Source of the DNA: Synechococcus sp. J7-Johnson
Lineage (GTDB): Bacteria; Cyanobacteriota; Cyanobacteriia; PCC-6307; Cyanobiaceae
Assembly (NCBI RefSeq): GCF_024345795.1
Contig: NZ_JAGQBU010000030.1
Coordinates: 1-32,264 of the forward strand
DNA: 32,264 nt
Direction: 5' to 3'
In this document: piece after piece, positions 2,674-11,250 of the stretch
Position numbering within the stretch: the first letter of the stretch is position 1
Layout of the letters: each line of letters begins with the position of its first letter
Notes under the pieces: generated by a model
What the model saw: only the letters and a program-made list of their open reading frames with translations
What the model was told of the DNA's origin: nothing
The model's database searches: none
Translations under genes and position numbers: made by a program

Positions 2674-3171
2674 TCAGGCTGCGGAGCCGCTGGGCAGCGC
2701 AGCGGCGGGGAGCACCTCGGCGTAGGAACCAAAGCCCCTGGCCACCTTGATGTAGCCCTTACGCAGCCGTTCTCCATCCTGGAGTCGCGCGGCCTCATCG
2801 AGCTCGGCCAGAGCGCTCTTGAGCTGTTTGGCCCTGGCGGTGGCTTCGGCGCGGTCGGCGGGAAGAAGGCGCTGGTTGATATAGAGCATTTCTCGGCCCA
2901 CTTCCTGCATGGGGCCGTGGATCAGATTGCGGGTGAACACCCAGTTCCTGTCGTTCACCAGTGTGGCCAGCTCGGGCAGCCGGTCCTTGGCTGCCAGGAA
3001 TCCCTCGGCCTGTCGCTGGATGATCGCCAGATCGGCTGTACTGATGCTCGGGGCTTTCTTGGCCTGGCCGCCATCGCAGGCCACCAATCCGAAGCTGAGC
3101 AGCACGGCGAGAGCCAGGAGGCCCAGCTGCCTCAGCGCATGACGAAGGGTGGAAACCAGCTGAACGGCCAT
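2674..3171 (-). CDS. psbQ: Photosystem II lipoprotein PsbQ (CyanoQ)
   Basis: Extrinsic lumenal subunit of cyanobacterial photosystem II that stabilises the oxygen-evolving complex. The protein is 165 residues. It has a lipoprotein signal (LGLLALAVLLSFGLVAC, lipidated Cys32) followed by a mostly helical mature domain containing NDRNWVFTRNLIHGPMQEVG, typical of the four-helix PsbQ fold. The ATG at 3171 is preferred to an in-frame upstream start because the signal peptide begins here. Divergently transcribed from purU across 116 bp. Presence of this gene is one of the clearest signs that the DNA is cyanobacterial. Confidence 0.87.
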   Translation of the reverse strand: MAVQLVSTLRHALRQLGLLALAVLLSFGLVACDGGQAKKAPSISTADLAIIQRQAEGFLAAKDRLPELATLVNDRNWVFTRNLIHGPMQEVGREMLYINQRLLPADRAEATARAKQLKSALAELDEAARLQDGERLRKGYIKVARGFGSYAEVLPAAALPSGSAA

Positions 3172-3287
3172 GGTGAGCACCGAAGTCAGGCGCGACTGTA
3201 CGTCGCACCGGCATGGCCATCTGCCTTGCTGGCGACTGGCCTGGAGAGCGCCGGGCACAATGCCCTTCGAGACAGGCCCTGGTGCCG

Positions 3288-4142: not shown

Positions 4143-5419
4143 GGCAGGAGTGGCTGCGGCGCCTTGATGCGACCAGGCCCGAGGGCGCCTCGCCCCTGGG
4201 CTGGCGTTGTTTTCAGCTGGGCTTGCTGTTGCTGGCCAGTTCAGCCCTGCTGGCCGGAGTCCTCCTGCTGGTGGCCCTGATCCTTGGTTGCCGCCAGCGC
4301 CTGCCCTGGTGGCGGGATCGGGTCAATCAGGTACTGCTGCTGGTGTCAGCCCTGATGGTGCTGGGTTGTTTCACCGCCTCCAGTGGCTGGCTGGCCTGGG
4401 TGGGCCTGGGCAACTGGCTGCCCTTCTTCTGGGCGTTCTGGGGGTTTCAGCCCTACCTGGCCTCGGCCCCGGCCCGCCGGCGGCTGGCCCTCTGGCTGGT
4501 GGCCGGCACCGTGCCGGTGATCGTCACCGGCCTCGGACAAATCGTCTGGGGTTGGAGCGGGCCGTTTCAGACCCTGGGGGGAGCGATCATCTGGCACCTC
4601 AATGCCGGTGGCAATCCGCCCGGGCGCCTGGCCGGCCTGTTCGACTACGCCAACATCGCCGGAGCCTGGCTGGCCCTGGCCTGGCCCTTTGCCCTGGCGG
4701 CGCTGCTGCAGCGCCCTCAATCGTTGTTGAAGCGCATGCCGGCCTTGCTGATCACGGTGGGCCTGGTGGCCGCCATCGCCCTCACCGACTCCCGCAATGC
4801 CTGGGGGGCCCTGGTGCTGGCGCTCCCCTTGGTGGCGGGTCCGGCCCGCTGGATCTGGCTCCTGCCCCTGCTGGTGGTGCTGCTCATCCCCGTGGGGCTT
4901 GCCAGCCTGCCGGGGGTGCCCGTGGTGCTGCAGCAACCCGCCCGAGAGCTTGTACCCGCTGTGATCTGGGAGCGGCTGAGCGATCTGGAGTTCGCCGGCC
5001 GCCGCCCCCTGGCCATCACCCGGATCAACCAGTGGGGGGTGGCGCTGCAGCTGGTGGCGGAACGTCCCTGGCTCGGCTGGGGCGCTGCCGCCTTCAGCGC
5101 GATCTATCCCCTGCGCACCGCCGGCATCTGGCATGGTCATCCCCACAATCTGCCGATCGACCTGGCGGTCAGCCATGGGGCTGTGGTGGCGTTGCTGCTG
5201 GTGGGCCTGGTGCTGGCGCTGCAGATTCAGGCGGCCCGCCTGGGCATGGCGAGTGGGGCCCTGTTCGATCGGGCCTGGTGGGCGGCCTTCCTGGTGCTGA
5301 TGGCGCTCCACGCCACCGACATTCCGCTTTATGACAGCCGCATCAACATCGCCGGCTGGGTGCTGCTCTGCGGCCTGCGCGCCTACTCCCTCAGCCCGGA
5401 GCTGCGCAGGCGGGTCTGA
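4139..5419 (+). CDS. O-antigen ligase / IctB-like polytopic membrane protein
   Basis: Integral membrane protein of 426 residues with roughly ten hydrophobic helices. It fits the Wzy_C / O-antigen ligase superfamily. The family's large periplasmic loop lies in the second half (about residues 270-350) and contains RPWLGWGAAAF and HGHPHNLPIDLAVSHG, the conserved histidine-rich segment. The upstream helix carries LTDSRNAWGAL, typical of the cyanobacterial branch that includes IctB, once called a bicarbonate transporter. The role is therefore either surface-polysaccharide ligation or polymerisation, or an IctB-like unknown function; sequence alone does not decide. It starts at a GTG coupled to purU, and its 3' end overlaps the convergent radical SAM gene by 29 bp. 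Confidence 0.8.
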   Translation: MRQEWLRRLDATRPEGASPLGWRCFQLGLLLLASSALLAGVLLLVALILGCRQRLPWWRDRVNQVLLLVSALMVLGCFTASSGWLAWVGLGNWLPFFWAFWGFQPYLASAPARRRLALWLVAGTVPVIVTGLGQIVWGWSGPFQTLGGAIIWHLNAGGNPPGRLAGLFDYANIAGAWLALAWPFALAALLQRPQSLLKRMPALLITVGLVAAIALTDSRNAWGALVLALPLVAGPARWIWLLPLLVVLLIPVGLASLPGVPVVLQQPARELVPAVIWERLSDLEFAGRRPLAITRINQWGVALQLVAERPWLGWGAAAFSAIYPLRTAGIWHGHPHNLPIDLAVSHGAVVALLLVGLVLALQIQAARLGMASGALFDRAWWAAFLVLMALHATDIPLYDSRINIAGWVLLCGLRAYSLSPELRRRV

Positions 5420-7070
5420 CGCTGGCTGCCGCGAGGGCCTCCTGCCTGTGACGGGCCAGGGTGGCCTTGGGCAGGGGCCCCTCCAGGTGCTCCCAGGGCA
5501 GCACCCTCTCCGTGTCCCAGAGACCATGGATCGCGTCCTGCCAGGGCGGGAGCGGGGGCAGGCTTCCCTCAGGTTGCTCGCACAGGCTGCGGTAGGCGGC
5601 CTTCCATCCCCCCTGACTGCCGTGGCGGCCCCGCACGGCGGCGATCACGGCGGCCAGGCGCCGGTCGCTGCGGGAGAGCAGCGCCTGGATCACGCTCCAG
5701 CCGTAGCTCTCGGGCCGCAAGTCGATGCCCTTGGGCTGCAGGCGGCGCGCCAGCCGTTTCAGGCGCTTCTCCGCTTCGGGCCGCACCGGTTCCCACTGAA
5801 ACGGGGTATGGGCCTTTGGCACGAAGCTGCTCACCCCCAGGCTCAGACGCAGGCCGGGGGTGGCCTTCTTCAGAGCCAGCAGCAGATCGGCGGTGGCTTC
5901 GATGTCATCGTCGTCCTCGGTTGGAAGGCCGGCCATGCCGTAGAGCTTCAGGCCGCTGAGCCCGCCCTCCTTGGCGTAGCGGGCCGCCGCGAAGATCTCC
6001 TCGGTGGCCAGCTTCTTGTTCACCACCTGCCTCATCCGCTCGCTGCCGCTCTCGATCGCAATCGTCAGCGACTTGCTGCCGCGCCTGGCCAGGATCCGCC
6101 CCAGCTGTGGCGTCACCGTGGCGGCGCGCACCGAGCTCACGCTCACCCGGGTGTCATCGAAGCGGTCCTGGTCAAGCCAGCTCAGCAGGTCGGCGAACTG
6201 GGGGTGCTGGGTGACCGAGGCCCCCAGCAGGCCCAGCCTGCGGGTGGCCCCCAGACCCGCCTCCACGGCGGGGATCAGGCCGTCGTCGAGTGACGGGGTG
6301 CGGAAGGGCAGGGTGAGGTAGCTGGCCAGGCAGAAGCGGCAGAGCTCGGGGCAGCTGCGCACCACCTCCACCATGTGGATCGAGGGCCAGGCCGCCTCGG
6401 GGGTGATCACCATCGAGTGGCTGAGGGTGTTGCCCCGCCAGGTCTGCTTGGCCACGGTCGCCGGGATGTCCGCCTCGATCGGCTCCACCGCCAGCAGGCT
6501 TCCGGCGCTGTCGTAGCGGGGGGCGTAAAGCGTTGGCACATACACCCCCGGCACCCGCGCCAGAGCGCGCAGCCGCTCGGCCCTCGGGGCCTGCCGGTGG
6601 GCGATCACCGACTCAACGAAGTCGGGCAGCAACTGTTCGCCATCGCCCAGCAGCACGGCGTCGAAGAAGGGGGCCAGGGGCTCGGGGTTGGCGGTGAGCA
6701 CCGGTCCGCCCCCGAAGACGATCGGATCGTCCTCGCCCCGCTGCCGGCTCCAGAGCGGAATGCCTTGCTGCTCCAGCAGGTCCAGCAGCACCGGGCCATC
6801 CAGTTCCCAGCTGAGCGAGAGACCGAAGAGGTCGCAGTGGCGGTGGGGGGGGTCGCTGCGGTCGGTGAACAGCCGCCGCACATCAAGGTCGGACCGCCGC
6901 GCCAGGGTCGCCCAGACCACCTGATAACCCAGGCTGGTGATGCCCACGGAATAGGTGCTGGGGAAGGCCAGCACGGTGCGCAGTGCATGGGCGGCCGGTT
7001 GGGCAGGCTCGAACAGCAGGGTCTCCTGGTCCAGGGAAAGGTCATCGGCGCAGTGAACCCAGGCTGTCAC
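5391..7070 (-). CDS. Radical SAM protein with B12-binding-like N-terminal domain
   Basis: Protein of 559 residues. The N-terminal half (about 1-200) looks like the cobalamin-binding-like domain found in many radical SAM enzymes (FPSTYSVGITSLGYQVVWA, GGGPVLTANPEPLAPFFD, LLGDGE). The radical SAM core follows. Its 4Fe-4S cluster ligands are a CX3CX2C motif at Cys240, Cys244 and Cys247 (SCPELCRFC). Further core motifs are TIAIESGSERMR and LKLYGMAGLPTEDDDD. The C-terminal 150 residues have no motif I recognise. The substrate is unknown. It starts with GTG at 7070, 58 bp after the upstream lipoprotein gene, and ends inside the convergent membrane-protein gene. A relationship to the methylthiotransferase-like or TIGR03960-like group is possible but unproven. 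Confidence 0.85.
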   Translation of the reverse strand: MTAWVHCADDLSLDQETLLFEPAQPAAHALRTVLAFPSTYSVGITSLGYQVVWATLARRSDLDVRRLFTDRSDPPHRHCDLFGLSLSWELDGPVLLDLLEQQGIPLWSRQRGEDDPIVFGGGPVLTANPEPLAPFFDAVLLGDGEQLLPDFVESVIAHRQAPRAERLRALARVPGVYVPTLYAPRYDSAGSLLAVEPIEADIPATVAKQTWRGNTLSHSMVITPEAAWPSIHMVEVVRSCPELCRFCLASYLTLPFRTPSLDDGLIPAVEAGLGATRRLGLLGASVTQHPQFADLLSWLDQDRFDDTRVSVSSVRAATVTPQLGRILARRGSKSLTIAIESGSERMRQVVNKKLATEEIFAAARYAKEGGLSGLKLYGMAGLPTEDDDDIEATADLLLALKKATPGLRLSLGVSSFVPKAHTPFQWEPVRPEAEKRLKRLARRLQPKGIDLRPESYGWSVIQALLSRSDRRLAAVIAAVRGRHGSQGGWKAAYRSLCEQPEGSLPPLPPWQDAIHGLWDTERVLPWEHLEGPLPKATLARHRQEALAAASVRPACAAPG

Positions 7071-7578: not shown

Positions 7579-7650
7579 GGGGGGAGAGCTGACGGCCCTC
7601 AAGCTATGCAGCGAAATCGAACGCTTCAGATGGCGTGGCATTTTGTAACC

Positions 7651-7908
7651 TCAACTACAGAAACAACGGCTCTGGTTCCGTTTGTCACAGGCTTGCCGCG
7701 GCCGCAGCGGCACCGACAGCACAGGCAGTTCAGCAACGCCCCTGCCGCTGGAGTTCAGCGACGTTTCTGGAGGGATCAGCCGCTGGTAGATCGACTGGCG
7801 ATTCAGCAACCGGGCCACCAAGAGGCTGCCCAGGCTGGCCACCAGCACCGGCTTGAGCAGCAGCACTAGGACCCAGGCCGCCGCCAGACCCCTGCTCAGG
7901 TCCAGCAC
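7651..7908 (-). CDS. Small hypothetical membrane ORF, doubtful
   Basis: An 85-residue frame from a GTG at 7908 that reads GC-rich in third positions like its neighbours. It contains a hydrophobic stretch long enough for one or two helices (AAAWVLVLLLKPVLVASLG, then LLVARLLN) and a short polar, Cys-containing C-terminus. The frame stays open upstream to a TGA near 7962, in the frame next to the acnB-like ORF. The two could be halves of one frameshifted gene. No family is recognised. Without it, 7579-7895 would be non-coding. Confidence 0.3.
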   Translation of the reverse strand: MLDLSRGLAAAWVLVLLLKPVLVASLGSLLVARLLNRQSIYQRLIPPETSLNSSGRGVAELPVLSVPLRPRQACDKRNQSRCFCS

Positions 7909-8168
7909 CAGGAAGATTGCCGCGACCTTGCTTTTGTCCGCCGGGGCATGGTCCGCTCATTGCCGTAGCCACTGGCGACCACGCACTTGACCGGCATCAT
8001 GTTGCCGCGTAGAGCTGAGGCCACCGTCTCCCTCGAGTGCTTGATCGTGCCGCCCCGGTTGCTGCAGGCCAGTATCGGCTCGCCCACCGGCTCGAAAGCC
8101 AAGGCCTGCCCAGCCGGGTCCATGCAAGCCATCAGCGCGACAAACGCCGCGCCCAGGCCTCTGGACAT
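7896..8168 (-). CDS. Small ORF carrying a degenerate internal segment of aconitase B
   Basis: A 90-residue ORF that starts 35 bp after the LprI-like gene. Its N-terminus resembles a secretion signal (GLGAAFVALMACMDPAGQALA). Residues from about 40 to 77 align without gaps to an internal part of AcnB: TIKHSRETVASALRGN here against [16 protein letters not shown] in AcnB, and SGYGNERTMPRR against [12 protein letters not shown]. Nucleotides match at 78 of 112 aligned positions in the same frame and strand. Differences are at least as common in first and second codon positions as in third positions, which argues for decay rather than selection for function. Most likely a pseudogene or a chimera; a genuine small exported protein is the alternative. 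Confidence 0.4.
   Translation of the reverse strand: MSRGLGAAFVALMACMDPAGQALAFEPVGEPILACSNRGGTIKHSRETVASALRGNMMPVKCVVASGYGNERTMPRRTKARSRQSSWCWT
7939..8050 (-). repeat. Diverged duplicate of acnB segment 9308-9419
   Basis: Aligned by eye, these 112 bases match 9308-9419 inside acnB at 78 positions (about 70%) with no gap and in the same reading frame, ending in a shared run GCTTGATCGTGC. Similarity may continue upstream in translation (QALAFE versus QAFE) after a small insertion, then fades. Both copies are on the minus strand, 1369 bp apart. Confidence 0.65.
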
Positions 8169-8203
8169 GGCCGAAGCCCTTGAGGGTCGTCGTGCTGAGG
8201 CTC

Positions 8204-8626
8204 TCACCAGCTGATGCCCGTGCCCAGGGCCCGTAGCTCCTGCACCCGGCGGATCGTCTGCACGGCCTGGCAGCGGCTGGTCCATTTTTCTGGGAATGGT
8301 GAGCGTCTGTAGTAGGCCTTCACCAGGGCGCACTGGGAATCGCGCAGACGGATCCAGGCCAACTGGGCGTCCTGCAGGGCCCGGCGCTCCTGGGAGTCGG
8401 CCCGCGCCATCAGGTCGCTGTAGACGACATTGAGTTCCCGGTCGGCTTTTGCCAGCGCCTGCCGATGGCAGGCCACTGCCGCCGCCTCTGCCTGGGGCAG
8501 GCCCGGGCACTCAACCGCGGTGCCGGAGAAGTAGCCACCGCTGGGATCGTCGGCCCGCGCCACGGGCGCCAGCAGCCCGAGCAGCGTGCATGCGGCCAGG
8601 ATGGGTGCGTGCAGCTGGGGGTTCAT
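8204..8626 (-). CDS. LprI-like (DUF1311) secreted protein
   Basis: Protein of 140 residues with a Sec signal ([19 protein letters not shown], cleavage after about residue 25). The mature part fits the LprI N-terminal / DUF1311 domain: Cys residues at the expected places (ECPGL, ACHRQAL, SQCALV, SRCQAV) and the typical helical segment [11 protein letters not shown] then [13 protein letters not shown]. The mycobacterial LprI namesake inhibits lysozyme, but most family members are uncharacterised, so only an envelope location is claimed. Its ATG overlaps the acnB stop by 4 bp (ATGA), so translation is probably coupled to aconitase, an odd pairing of a cytosolic TCA enzyme with an exported protein. 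Confidence 0.8.
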
Positions 8627-11250
8627 ACCTCAGCCAGCACCTTCTCCTCCTCCTCCACACTCACGACGCGGCCGGCTTCACTGAACCCATCGATCTGGTC
8701 GAAGTTGAGGTAGCGGTAGAGCTCGCCTGAGAGGGGATCGATCTTGGCCGCCGCAATCTCCAGGTACTCGGCCGGGCTGGGAATGCGGCCCAGCAGGGCA
8801 CACACCGCCGCCAGTTCGGCGCTGCCCAGATACACCTGGGCGCCGTTTCCGAGTCGGTTGTTGAAGTTGCGGGTGCTGGTGGAGAACACGGTGGTGTTGT
8901 CTTCCACCCGAGCCTGGTTGCCCATGCAGAGTGAGCATCCGGGCAGCTCCATGCGGGCGCCGGCGGCCTCGAACTTGGCGCTGTAACCCTCGGTGCGCAG
9001 GACCTCGTCGTCCATGCGGGTGGGGGGGCAGACCCACAGCCGCGCGGCGCTGGTGCCGGCCCCGTCGAGCACGGTGGCAGCGGCGCGGTAGTGGCCGATG
9101 TTGGTCATGCAGGAACCGATGAACACCTCATCGATCCGATCGCCCGCCACCTCGGAGAGCAGCTTGACGTTGTCGGGATCGTTGGGGCAGGCCAGCACCG
9201 GTTCGGTGAGATCATCGAGATTGATCTCGATGATTTCGGCGTACTCGGCGTCGGCGTCGGCGCCCATCAGCTGGGGATCGGCCAGCCAGGCCTCCATCGC
9301 CTGGATCCGCCGGGCCATCGTGCGCTCGTCGTGATAGCCGCGGGCGATCATGTTCCTGAGCAGCGCCACGTTGCTGCGCAGGTATTCGGCCACGGTGGCT
9401 TCCGAGAGCTTGATCGTGCAGCCTGCACACGACCGTTCGGCGGTCGCATCCGTGAGCTCGAACGCCTGCTCCAGCTTGAGATCGGGCAGCCCTTCGATCT
9501 CCATGATCCGGCCGGAGAACACGTTCTTCTTGTTGGCCTTCTCCACCGTGAGCAGACCCTTCTGAATCGCCACCCAGGGGATGGCGTTGACCACGTCGCG
9601 CAGGGTGACGCCAGGCTGGAGTGAACCGCTGAAACGCACCAGCACCGATTCGGGCATGTCGAGCGGCATGGCGCCGATGGCGGCGGCGAAGGCCACCAGG
9701 CCCGATCCTGCGGGGAAGGAGATGCCCAGGGGGAAGCGTGTGTGGCTGTCGCCGCCGGTGCCCACGGTGTCGGGCAGAAGCATGCGGTTGAGCCAGCTGT
9801 GGATGATGCCGTCGCCGGGGCGCAGGGCGACGCCGCCGCGGGAGGCCATGAAATCGGGCAGCTCGGCGTGGGTTTTGAGGTCAACCGGCTTGGGGTAGGC
9901 GGCGGTGTGACAGAAGCTCTGCAGCACCAGATCGGCGGAGAAGCCGAGGCAGGCCAGCTCCTTCATCTCGTCACGGGTCATCGGCCCGGTGGTGTCCTGG
10001 GAGCCGACGGTGGTCATCAGCGGTTCGCAGCTGGTGCCTGGGCGCACGCCCGGCAGGCCGCAGGCCTTGCCCACCATCTTCTGGGCCAGGGTGAAGCCCT
10101 TGCCGGTATCGGCCGGGGCCGCGGGGCGGATGAACAGCTCCGAGGGCGCCAGACCCAGCTGGGCCCGCACCTTGTCGGTCAATGAGCGGCCGATCAGCAG
10201 GGGGATGCGGCCACCGGCGCGCACTTCATCGGCGATGGTGCTGGGCTTGAGCTCGAAGCGGGCCACCACCTCACCGGCGCCGGGTTCGCCTTCAGCCCGT
10301 TCGATCGTGCCCGCATACGGACGGATCGTGATCACATCACCCGAGTTCAGCGCCGAGACATCGCACTCGATCGGCAGGGCGCCGGAATCCTCGGCGGTGT
10401 TGAAAAAGATCGGTGCGATCTTGCCGCCCAGGATCACGCCGCCGCCGCGCTTGTTGGGAACATGGGGGATGTCGGTGCCGGTGTGCCAGAGCACGGAGTT
10501 GATCGCCGACTTGCGCGAGCTGCCGGTGCCCACCACATCACCCACGTAGGCGACGGGGTGACCCTTGGTCTTGAGCTGCTCGATCAGCTCCAGCCCGCCC
10601 GGCATGCGGGTCTCCAGCATCGCCATGGCGTGCAGGGGGATGTCGGGGCGGGTGGTGGCGTGGGTGGCGGGGGAGAGGTCGTCGGTGTTGGTTTCACCCT
10701 CCACCTTGAATACCGTGACGGTGATCGCCGCCGGCAGTTCCGCCTTGGCGGTGAACCATTCGGCGGCGGCCCAGCTGTCGACCACCTGCTTCGCCCAGGG
10801 GTTGCTGGCCGCCAGCTCCAGCACGTCGTGGAACGAGTCGTAGACGAGCAGGGTGCGGCTCAGACCACGGGCCGCTTCGGCGGCGACGGCGGCATCGGCG
10901 TGGCCGAGCAGGCTGATCAGGGCACCGACGTTGTAGCCGCCGATCATGGTGGCCAGCAGCCTGGTGGCCTCGATCGGGCTGACCAGGGGGCTCGCGCTCA
11001 GTCCCTGGGCGATGGCGCTCAACCAGCTGGCCTTGACGTAGGCGGCCTCATCCACTCCCGGCGGGATGCGTTCACTGAGCAGATCGAGCAGAACGGTCTC
11101 CTCACCGGCGGGAGGCTGCTCCAGCAGCTGGGTGAGGGCCTGGGCCTGGGCGGCGGTGAGCGGCAGGGGCGGCACCCCGAGAGCGGTGCGCTCCGCCTCC
11201 GCCTGGCGGTAGCTCACCAGCAGGTCGGTGTCACTCTCTGGAGAGGGCAT
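8623..11250 (-). CDS. acnB: Aconitate hydratase B
   Basis: Bifunctional aconitase B (citrate to isocitrate; the family also acts on 2-methylisocitrate), 875 residues, the normal AcnB length. The N-terminal HEAT-like domain begins [17 protein letters not shown]. The swivel domain comes next, as usual for AcnB, and contains [19 protein letters not shown]. The three catalytic domains follow. The 4Fe-4S cluster ligands are Cys714 (GSCMTNIGH) and Cys772 and Cys775 ([10 protein letters not shown]), matching Cys710, Cys769 and Cys772 of E. coli AcnB. Further motifs are [11 protein letters not shown] and [13 protein letters not shown]. Divergent from the DAHP synthase gene. A perfect 10-bp inverted repeat sits 3 bp before its start codon and no Shine-Dalgarno is visible there. 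Confidence 0.96.

Follow-up and report, generated by a model that had tools for sequence, protein, structure and literature searches.

The small open reading frame (ORF) downstream of acnB in Synechococcus sp. J7-Johnson is, judged by its sequence, a chimera, in which the start of a WD40-like gene is followed by a scrap of acnB in the middle, with leftovers of a clc gene beyond. The 32,264-nucleotide stretch of DNA that was analysed (the window) has a G+C content of 67%, and its minus strand carries, in this order, acnB, an lprI-like gene, the small ORF, the clc pieces, a putative lipoprotein gene and a radical-SAM gene (Table 1). The scrap is quite probably what remains of an incomplete second copy of acnB, drawn from its 3′ half, which would have arisen by duplication or import and would later have been trimmed and decayed. 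We conclude that the small ORF most probably represents debris and not a new gene. The acnB-to-radical-SAM interval as a whole is evidently a mosaic that retains traces of its border genes.

Table 1. Features of the acnB-to-radical-SAM interval, in positions of the window.
Feature	Position	Strand	Remarks
Chimeric 90-aa ORF	7896..8168	minus	ATG start; seen in one genome
Putative severed 5′ end of secreted WD40-like gene, ~37 codons with signal-like peptide	8057..8168	minus	1G10 similarity ends at base 566 past acnB; relatives elsewhere
Decayed copy of acnB nt 1828-1945	7937..8054	minus	blastn and shuffle control
Matching stretch inside intact acnB	9306..9423	minus	genome search and blastn
clc gene relic, piece 1	7876..7938	minus	77.8% over 63 bp to G004; 82.5% over 57 bp to G007
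clc gene relic, piece 2 (clc 3′ end)	7688..7865, end point approximate	minus	out of frame with the chimeric ORF
lprI-like gene, PF07007	8204..8626	minus	start overlaps the acnB stop
acnB, aconitate hydratase 2, intact	8623..11250	minus	
Putative lipoprotein, 170 aa	7129..7641	minus	
Radical-SAM gene, opposite border of the variable interval	5391..7070	minus	

The initial annotation had described an open frame of 90 residues (7896-8168) containing a segment (7939-8050) that aligns ungapped with acnB (9308-9419), 78 of 112 positions being identical, and all of this is borne out; the frame lies on the minus strand and starts with ATG. The next-best ungapped site for the 112-mer, in a scan of the plus strand only, has 52 matches. 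Comparison with the window's acnB by blastn widens the match to 118 bp (7937-8054; 83/118, 70.3%, E 4e-10), and a search of the whole own genome with the ORF DNA finds, besides the ORF itself, acnB alone at E ≤ 0.001 (E 9.2e-9). The two sequences share a reading frame, the scrap GGTIKHSRETVASALRGNMMPVKCVVASGYGNERTMPRR being aligned to 39 acnB residues. Codon shuffling of the 117 in-frame bases (200 trials, scanned over the whole window on both strands) gave a mean of 55.5 and a maximum of 60 matches, against 82 observed. The annotation had also held that the differences are not concentrated at third codon positions; when the 34 mismatches of the 112-bp alignment with the window's own acnB are assigned through the ORF start at 8168, they fall 14/10/10 on codon positions 1/2/3, as claimed. 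It had let its case hang on whether a pairwise alignment would be significant, which it is, and its description of a decaying duplicate is well founded, since homology, shared frame and shuffle control all support a decayed partial copy of acnB. The scrap has the marks of a gene relic: homology to acnB, no excess of changes at third positions, and partial length, covering 118 of the 2628 bases of its parent. No aconitase domain (PF11791, PF06434 and PF00330 were sought) matches the 90-residue product at E ≤ 1. Its sole Pfam match, FAM194, has an E-value of 0.034, under the cut-off of that family, and was discarded.

The N-terminus has a separate history. The first 566 bases beyond acnB span lprI and roughly 37 codons of the small ORF, and across them the window is 95.8% identical to Synechococcus sp. 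1G10. At that point the similarity ends, and the acnB-like segment begins at base 569. Beyond this breakpoint the 1G10 sequence continues, with a change of frame, into a body of 170 codons. This body is matched in one of nine genus genomes, with the J7-Johnson genome itself among those without a match. Among 300 family genomes, 7 match it at E ≤ 0.01, and the matches in four of these (1G10, G215, G061 and G252) are strong. The 35-residue start is found in 10 of the 300 at E ≤ 0.05, and at E ≤ 4e-5 in J7-Johnson, 1G10, G061, G215 and G252. The ORFs of G061 and G215 (409 and 411 aa) have weak matches to WD40 or β-propeller domains, one just over and the other just under the Pfam WD40 cut-off, and the WD40-like gene is present in full length in another genus. 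After the junction, these relatives carry a sequence different from that of the chimeric ORF. In G215, the WD40-like gene is placed after an lprI remnant, and in G252 (a genome 78% complete and 6% contaminated) it directly follows acnB. A full-length relative of lprI is found only in J7-Johnson and 1G10 among the 300 family genomes, with some match in 5. The WD40-like secreted gene of 1G10 (L033, 5001-5620) is itself frame-shifted and shortened.

With its start present in the ORF and its body missing from the genome, and because the N-terminus matches the secreted WD40-like family and breaks off relative to 1G10, the apparent secretion signal is best described as the cut-off start of a pre-existing gene of secreted type. 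The initial annotation was thus right that a signal-like start exists, but the start is not newly assembled, as it belongs to a pre-existing gene that stands behind lprI at the same place in 1G10 and is full-length in another genus. The annotation had also named a conserved secreted family not derived from aconitase as a finding that would tell against it; such a family does account for the N-terminus, but not for the aconitase-like part.

On its other side, the scrap runs into remains of clc, the clc match beginning at base 685 past acnB and the acnB match ending at 686. Of the eight other genus genomes, five (G003, G004, G006, G007 and G008) have a complete clc gene after acnB, at least 90% identical to the clc of G004 in each; G002 carries a different type of clc (71%), and none is found downstream of acnB in G005 and 1G10 at E ≤ 0.001. 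Since the order acnB-clc is common in this way, an acnB piece followed by clc is the arrangement expected of a displaced resident end. The putative lipoprotein beyond the clc pieces is kept in genus members and has no Pfam match; the version in 1G10, about 72% identical over 198 bp, lies among other inserted genes.

The live acnB gene appears to have exchanged its own end. Over its last 180 bp (8623-8802), identity reaches 97-98% with the live ends of 1G10 and G002 but only 79-83% with those of the remaining six genus members, and as much as 92% with that of a genome from another genus, so that this stretch is likely a recombinant gene end. A further 180-bp bin, at about nt 1726-1905 of acnB, is 88% identical between the window and 1G10 where other bins reach 95-99%, and a small exchange within the gene is possible there. 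1G10 also retains a displaced acnB end of the genus type downstream of its live gene. This relic is identical to G004 at 105 of 110 positions versus 91 of 110 for its own live gene in the same columns, and its best local alignment scores are 156 and 97.6, respectively. Of six diagnostic sites, from which regions L106 and L109 were excluded because their ungapped end profiles are meaningless (they were kept in the other acnB-end comparisons), five are of the genus type, none of the own type and one of neither. If the columns are instead taken from the alignment with the own gene, the relic matches that gene at 90 of 99 positions and G004 at 87; the choice of columns reverses the counts, and the type therefore rests on gap placement. 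We read 1G10 as having imported an acnB end of another type together with cargo, whereby the old genus-type end was pushed downstream.

The scrap in the window is more decayed. It differs from its own acnB at 35 of 118 sites and from every genus acnB at no fewer than 33, and as it is equally near to its own gene (83/118) and to the other genus acnBs (80-85/118), it would fit a displaced end of either type. The 1G10 relic differs from G004 at 5 of 110 (Fisher p 4e-7 against the 35/118 of the window scrap) and from its own gene at 19 of 110 (p 0.03). Fourfold sites in the last 480 acnB codons differ by 5.5% between the window and G002, by 9% between the window and 1G10, and by 22-27% from other genus members. 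The scrap looks older than the split between the window and 1G10, or else derived from a separate event. Given the unequal decay, the two relics do not look like one event of one age, and a single origin for both is doubtful.

Relics of border genes are not confined to these two strains. The DNA downstream of acnB was compared in 56 regions of 2.8 to 8.6 kb: the window, 1G10, seven more from the genus, seven further relatives and 40 other family members, the last taken in the order of the acnB protein search and skipping G314, G320, G262, G266, G290, G216 and G195. That family-wide search gives two matches for most genomes, and it served for this order, not as evidence on relics. Pieces of acnB occur in five (the window, 1G10, G239, G302 and G188), always on the strand of acnB itself; those in the three further genomes are 180 bp long with 93.9% identity to the own acnB end (G239), 62 bp with 91.9% (G302) and 65 bp with 98.5% (G188). 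A 22-bp match in L081 (E 5e-4) was not counted. No match to reversed acnB appears across the 56 regions at E ≤ 0.01, nor to the reversed own acnB ends at E ≤ 1e-4 in 52 regions, a set that leaves aside L044-L047 of the relic survey.

The opposite border leaves comparable traces. Relics of the 5′ part of the radical-SAM gene are present in four of the 56 regions (G002, G302, G188 and G110), and in G302 and G188 they are directly joined to the 3′ relic of acnB. These joined relics (L105, 930-1360, and L110, 900-1385 past acnB) are followed by a second interval that leads to the intact radical-SAM gene. In G302, G188 and G110 the relic is closest to the radical-SAM gene of its own genome (rank 1 of 45 in every case). 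This points to tandem duplication, or to import out of a very close relative, and weakens import as the sole route. For the relic in G002 (L034, bases 2992-3177 past acnB), the gene of its own genome comes only at rank 37 of 45; behind this relic lies a 62-bp clc match. Both duplication and import may act at the interval.

The proposed course of events is as follows. The interval would gain DNA by recombination anchored in the core genes on its flanks, either through import of a neighbour's acnB end with cargo or through tandem duplication of the interval itself, and such events would leave pieces of the flanking genes behind. In the window, the cargo would have been lprI and the secreted WD40-like gene, and an incomplete second acnB copy, drawn from the 3′ half, would once have lain downstream of the live gene, between it and the radical-SAM gene. 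Later deletions would have cut the WD40-like gene after about 37 codons and joined it to nt 1828 of acnB, with nt 1945 joined to the remains of clc, and the junctions would by luck have left a frame of 90 residues open. From the traces in the related genomes, we infer that the scrap in the window stems from the same kind of event and that the steps followed in this order. None of the genomes compared was found to have a longer, collinear acnB copy at this place. A phage or plasmid source for 7600-8650 was rejected, as there was no match in phage and plasmid records at E ≤ 1e-5, and no relative was found in viral contigs.

Two other origins for the scrap have been weighed. It could be a recent copy of the genome's own acnB segment, made by template switching or by ectopic conversion across a distance of 1.3 kb, as the common strand, the short distance and the sharp borders would fit. 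Yet 30% divergence would then stand beside lprI and an ORF start that are only about 4% diverged from 1G10, and a recent copy should be nearer to its own acnB than to other genus acnBs, which the scrap is not; this origin is unlikely. That an unrelated small secreted protein resembles aconitase by chance or convergence can draw on the N-terminal third, which does belong to an unrelated family of secreted type. The sequence of that family differs after the junction, though, and the in-frame matches far exceed the best of the codon shuffles, while the whole-genome E-value given above points the same way, so that chance similarity is hardly credible. A relic of a partial second acnB copy is thus preferred.

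The remaining alternative concerns not the origin but the fate of the scrap: a new functional small secreted protein, translated and under selection, in which the export signal of the WD40-like gene carries a diverging fragment of aconitase. The start codon, the open frame, the signal-like N-terminus and the place behind lprI all speak for it. In simulations of neutral decay, in which acnB was mutated to the divergence of the scrap over 39 codons, the frame stays open in 34-58% of trials, and the number of third-position differences fits as well (P of as few as observed, 0.08-0.55). The third-position G+C of 87% exceeds what decay under unbiased or AT-biased mutation produces (P 0 to 0.02), but it is ordinary under GC-ward mutation bias (P 0.12-0.15). 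Bases found in the scrap but in none of nine genus acnBs number 15/8/3 over the codon positions. Such a shortage at third positions is not predicted by neutral decay, although it counts for less because those sites are also the most variable among the nine. Against function, the 35 codons shared with 1G10 show eight nonsynonymous and three synonymous changes (six and four in lprI), and the chimeric ORF was found nowhere else in searches of its own genome, nine genus genomes and wider sets. The absence of a σ70-like promoter match from 7600-8700 says little, as read-through from acnB is possible; terminator-like matches are present there. A selected protein is very unlikely on this balance. That the chimera is nonetheless translated and exported, an enzyme fragment caught behind a ready-made secretion signal as a gene at birth, is likewise very unlikely. 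The initial suggestion of a new small gene being assembled thus finds little favour, with the chimera confined to one genome, no third-position excess and a frame that chance could well have kept open, and we infer that the scrap lacks a function.

A literature search on the acnB-radical-SAM site, judged by titles and the opening of abstracts, returned nothing on it, but parallels exist elsewhere. Homology-facilitated illegitimate recombination has been proposed for the displaced effector ends of Vibrio cholerae arrays (PMC5361080). As outlined in that account, those arrays resemble acnB of 1G10 in having an anchor of homology on one side and a non-homologous join on the other, and in the shift of the old 3′ end downstream as a remnant. 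Here, the anchor is a housekeeping gene and the cargo consists of lprI and the WD40-like gene, the case is known from comparison of genomes alone, and the border relics of three genomes look own-type, unlike in the V. cholerae model as presented there.

Partial tandem duplication (merodiploidy) made by transformation has been proposed for pneumococcus (PMC3784515). At the acnB interval, a duplication of this kind would yield border-gene copies that keep their orientation, which agrees with the own-like radical-SAM relics in G302, G188 and G110, but alone it leaves the other-type live acnB end and the genus-type relic of 1G10 unexplained. Replacement flexible genomic islands of aquatic prokaryotes, swapped through conserved flanks (PMC4033161), also combine variable content between conserved genes with homologous recombination in the flanks. 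The islands covered in that source are large surface-structure clusters, unlike the acnB interval, and in that model their contents are replaced precisely, whereas border relics persist here. The scrap is like ordinary bacterial pseudogene fragments in being a decayed part of the gene next to it, in which changes do not pile up at third positions; unlike them, its frame is open and joined to a signal-like peptide.

The locus serves as a worked example: recombination tied to a core gene can leave fragments of it behind, and one of these fragments can come to lie in frame after a secretion signal and still not be a gene. An open frame in DNA of such high G+C content is, as a caution, not proof of a gene. 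Because relics of the one border gene and of the other are preserved in several genomes, the acnB-radical-SAM interval can be used, in these picocyanobacteria, as a natural archive of such events.
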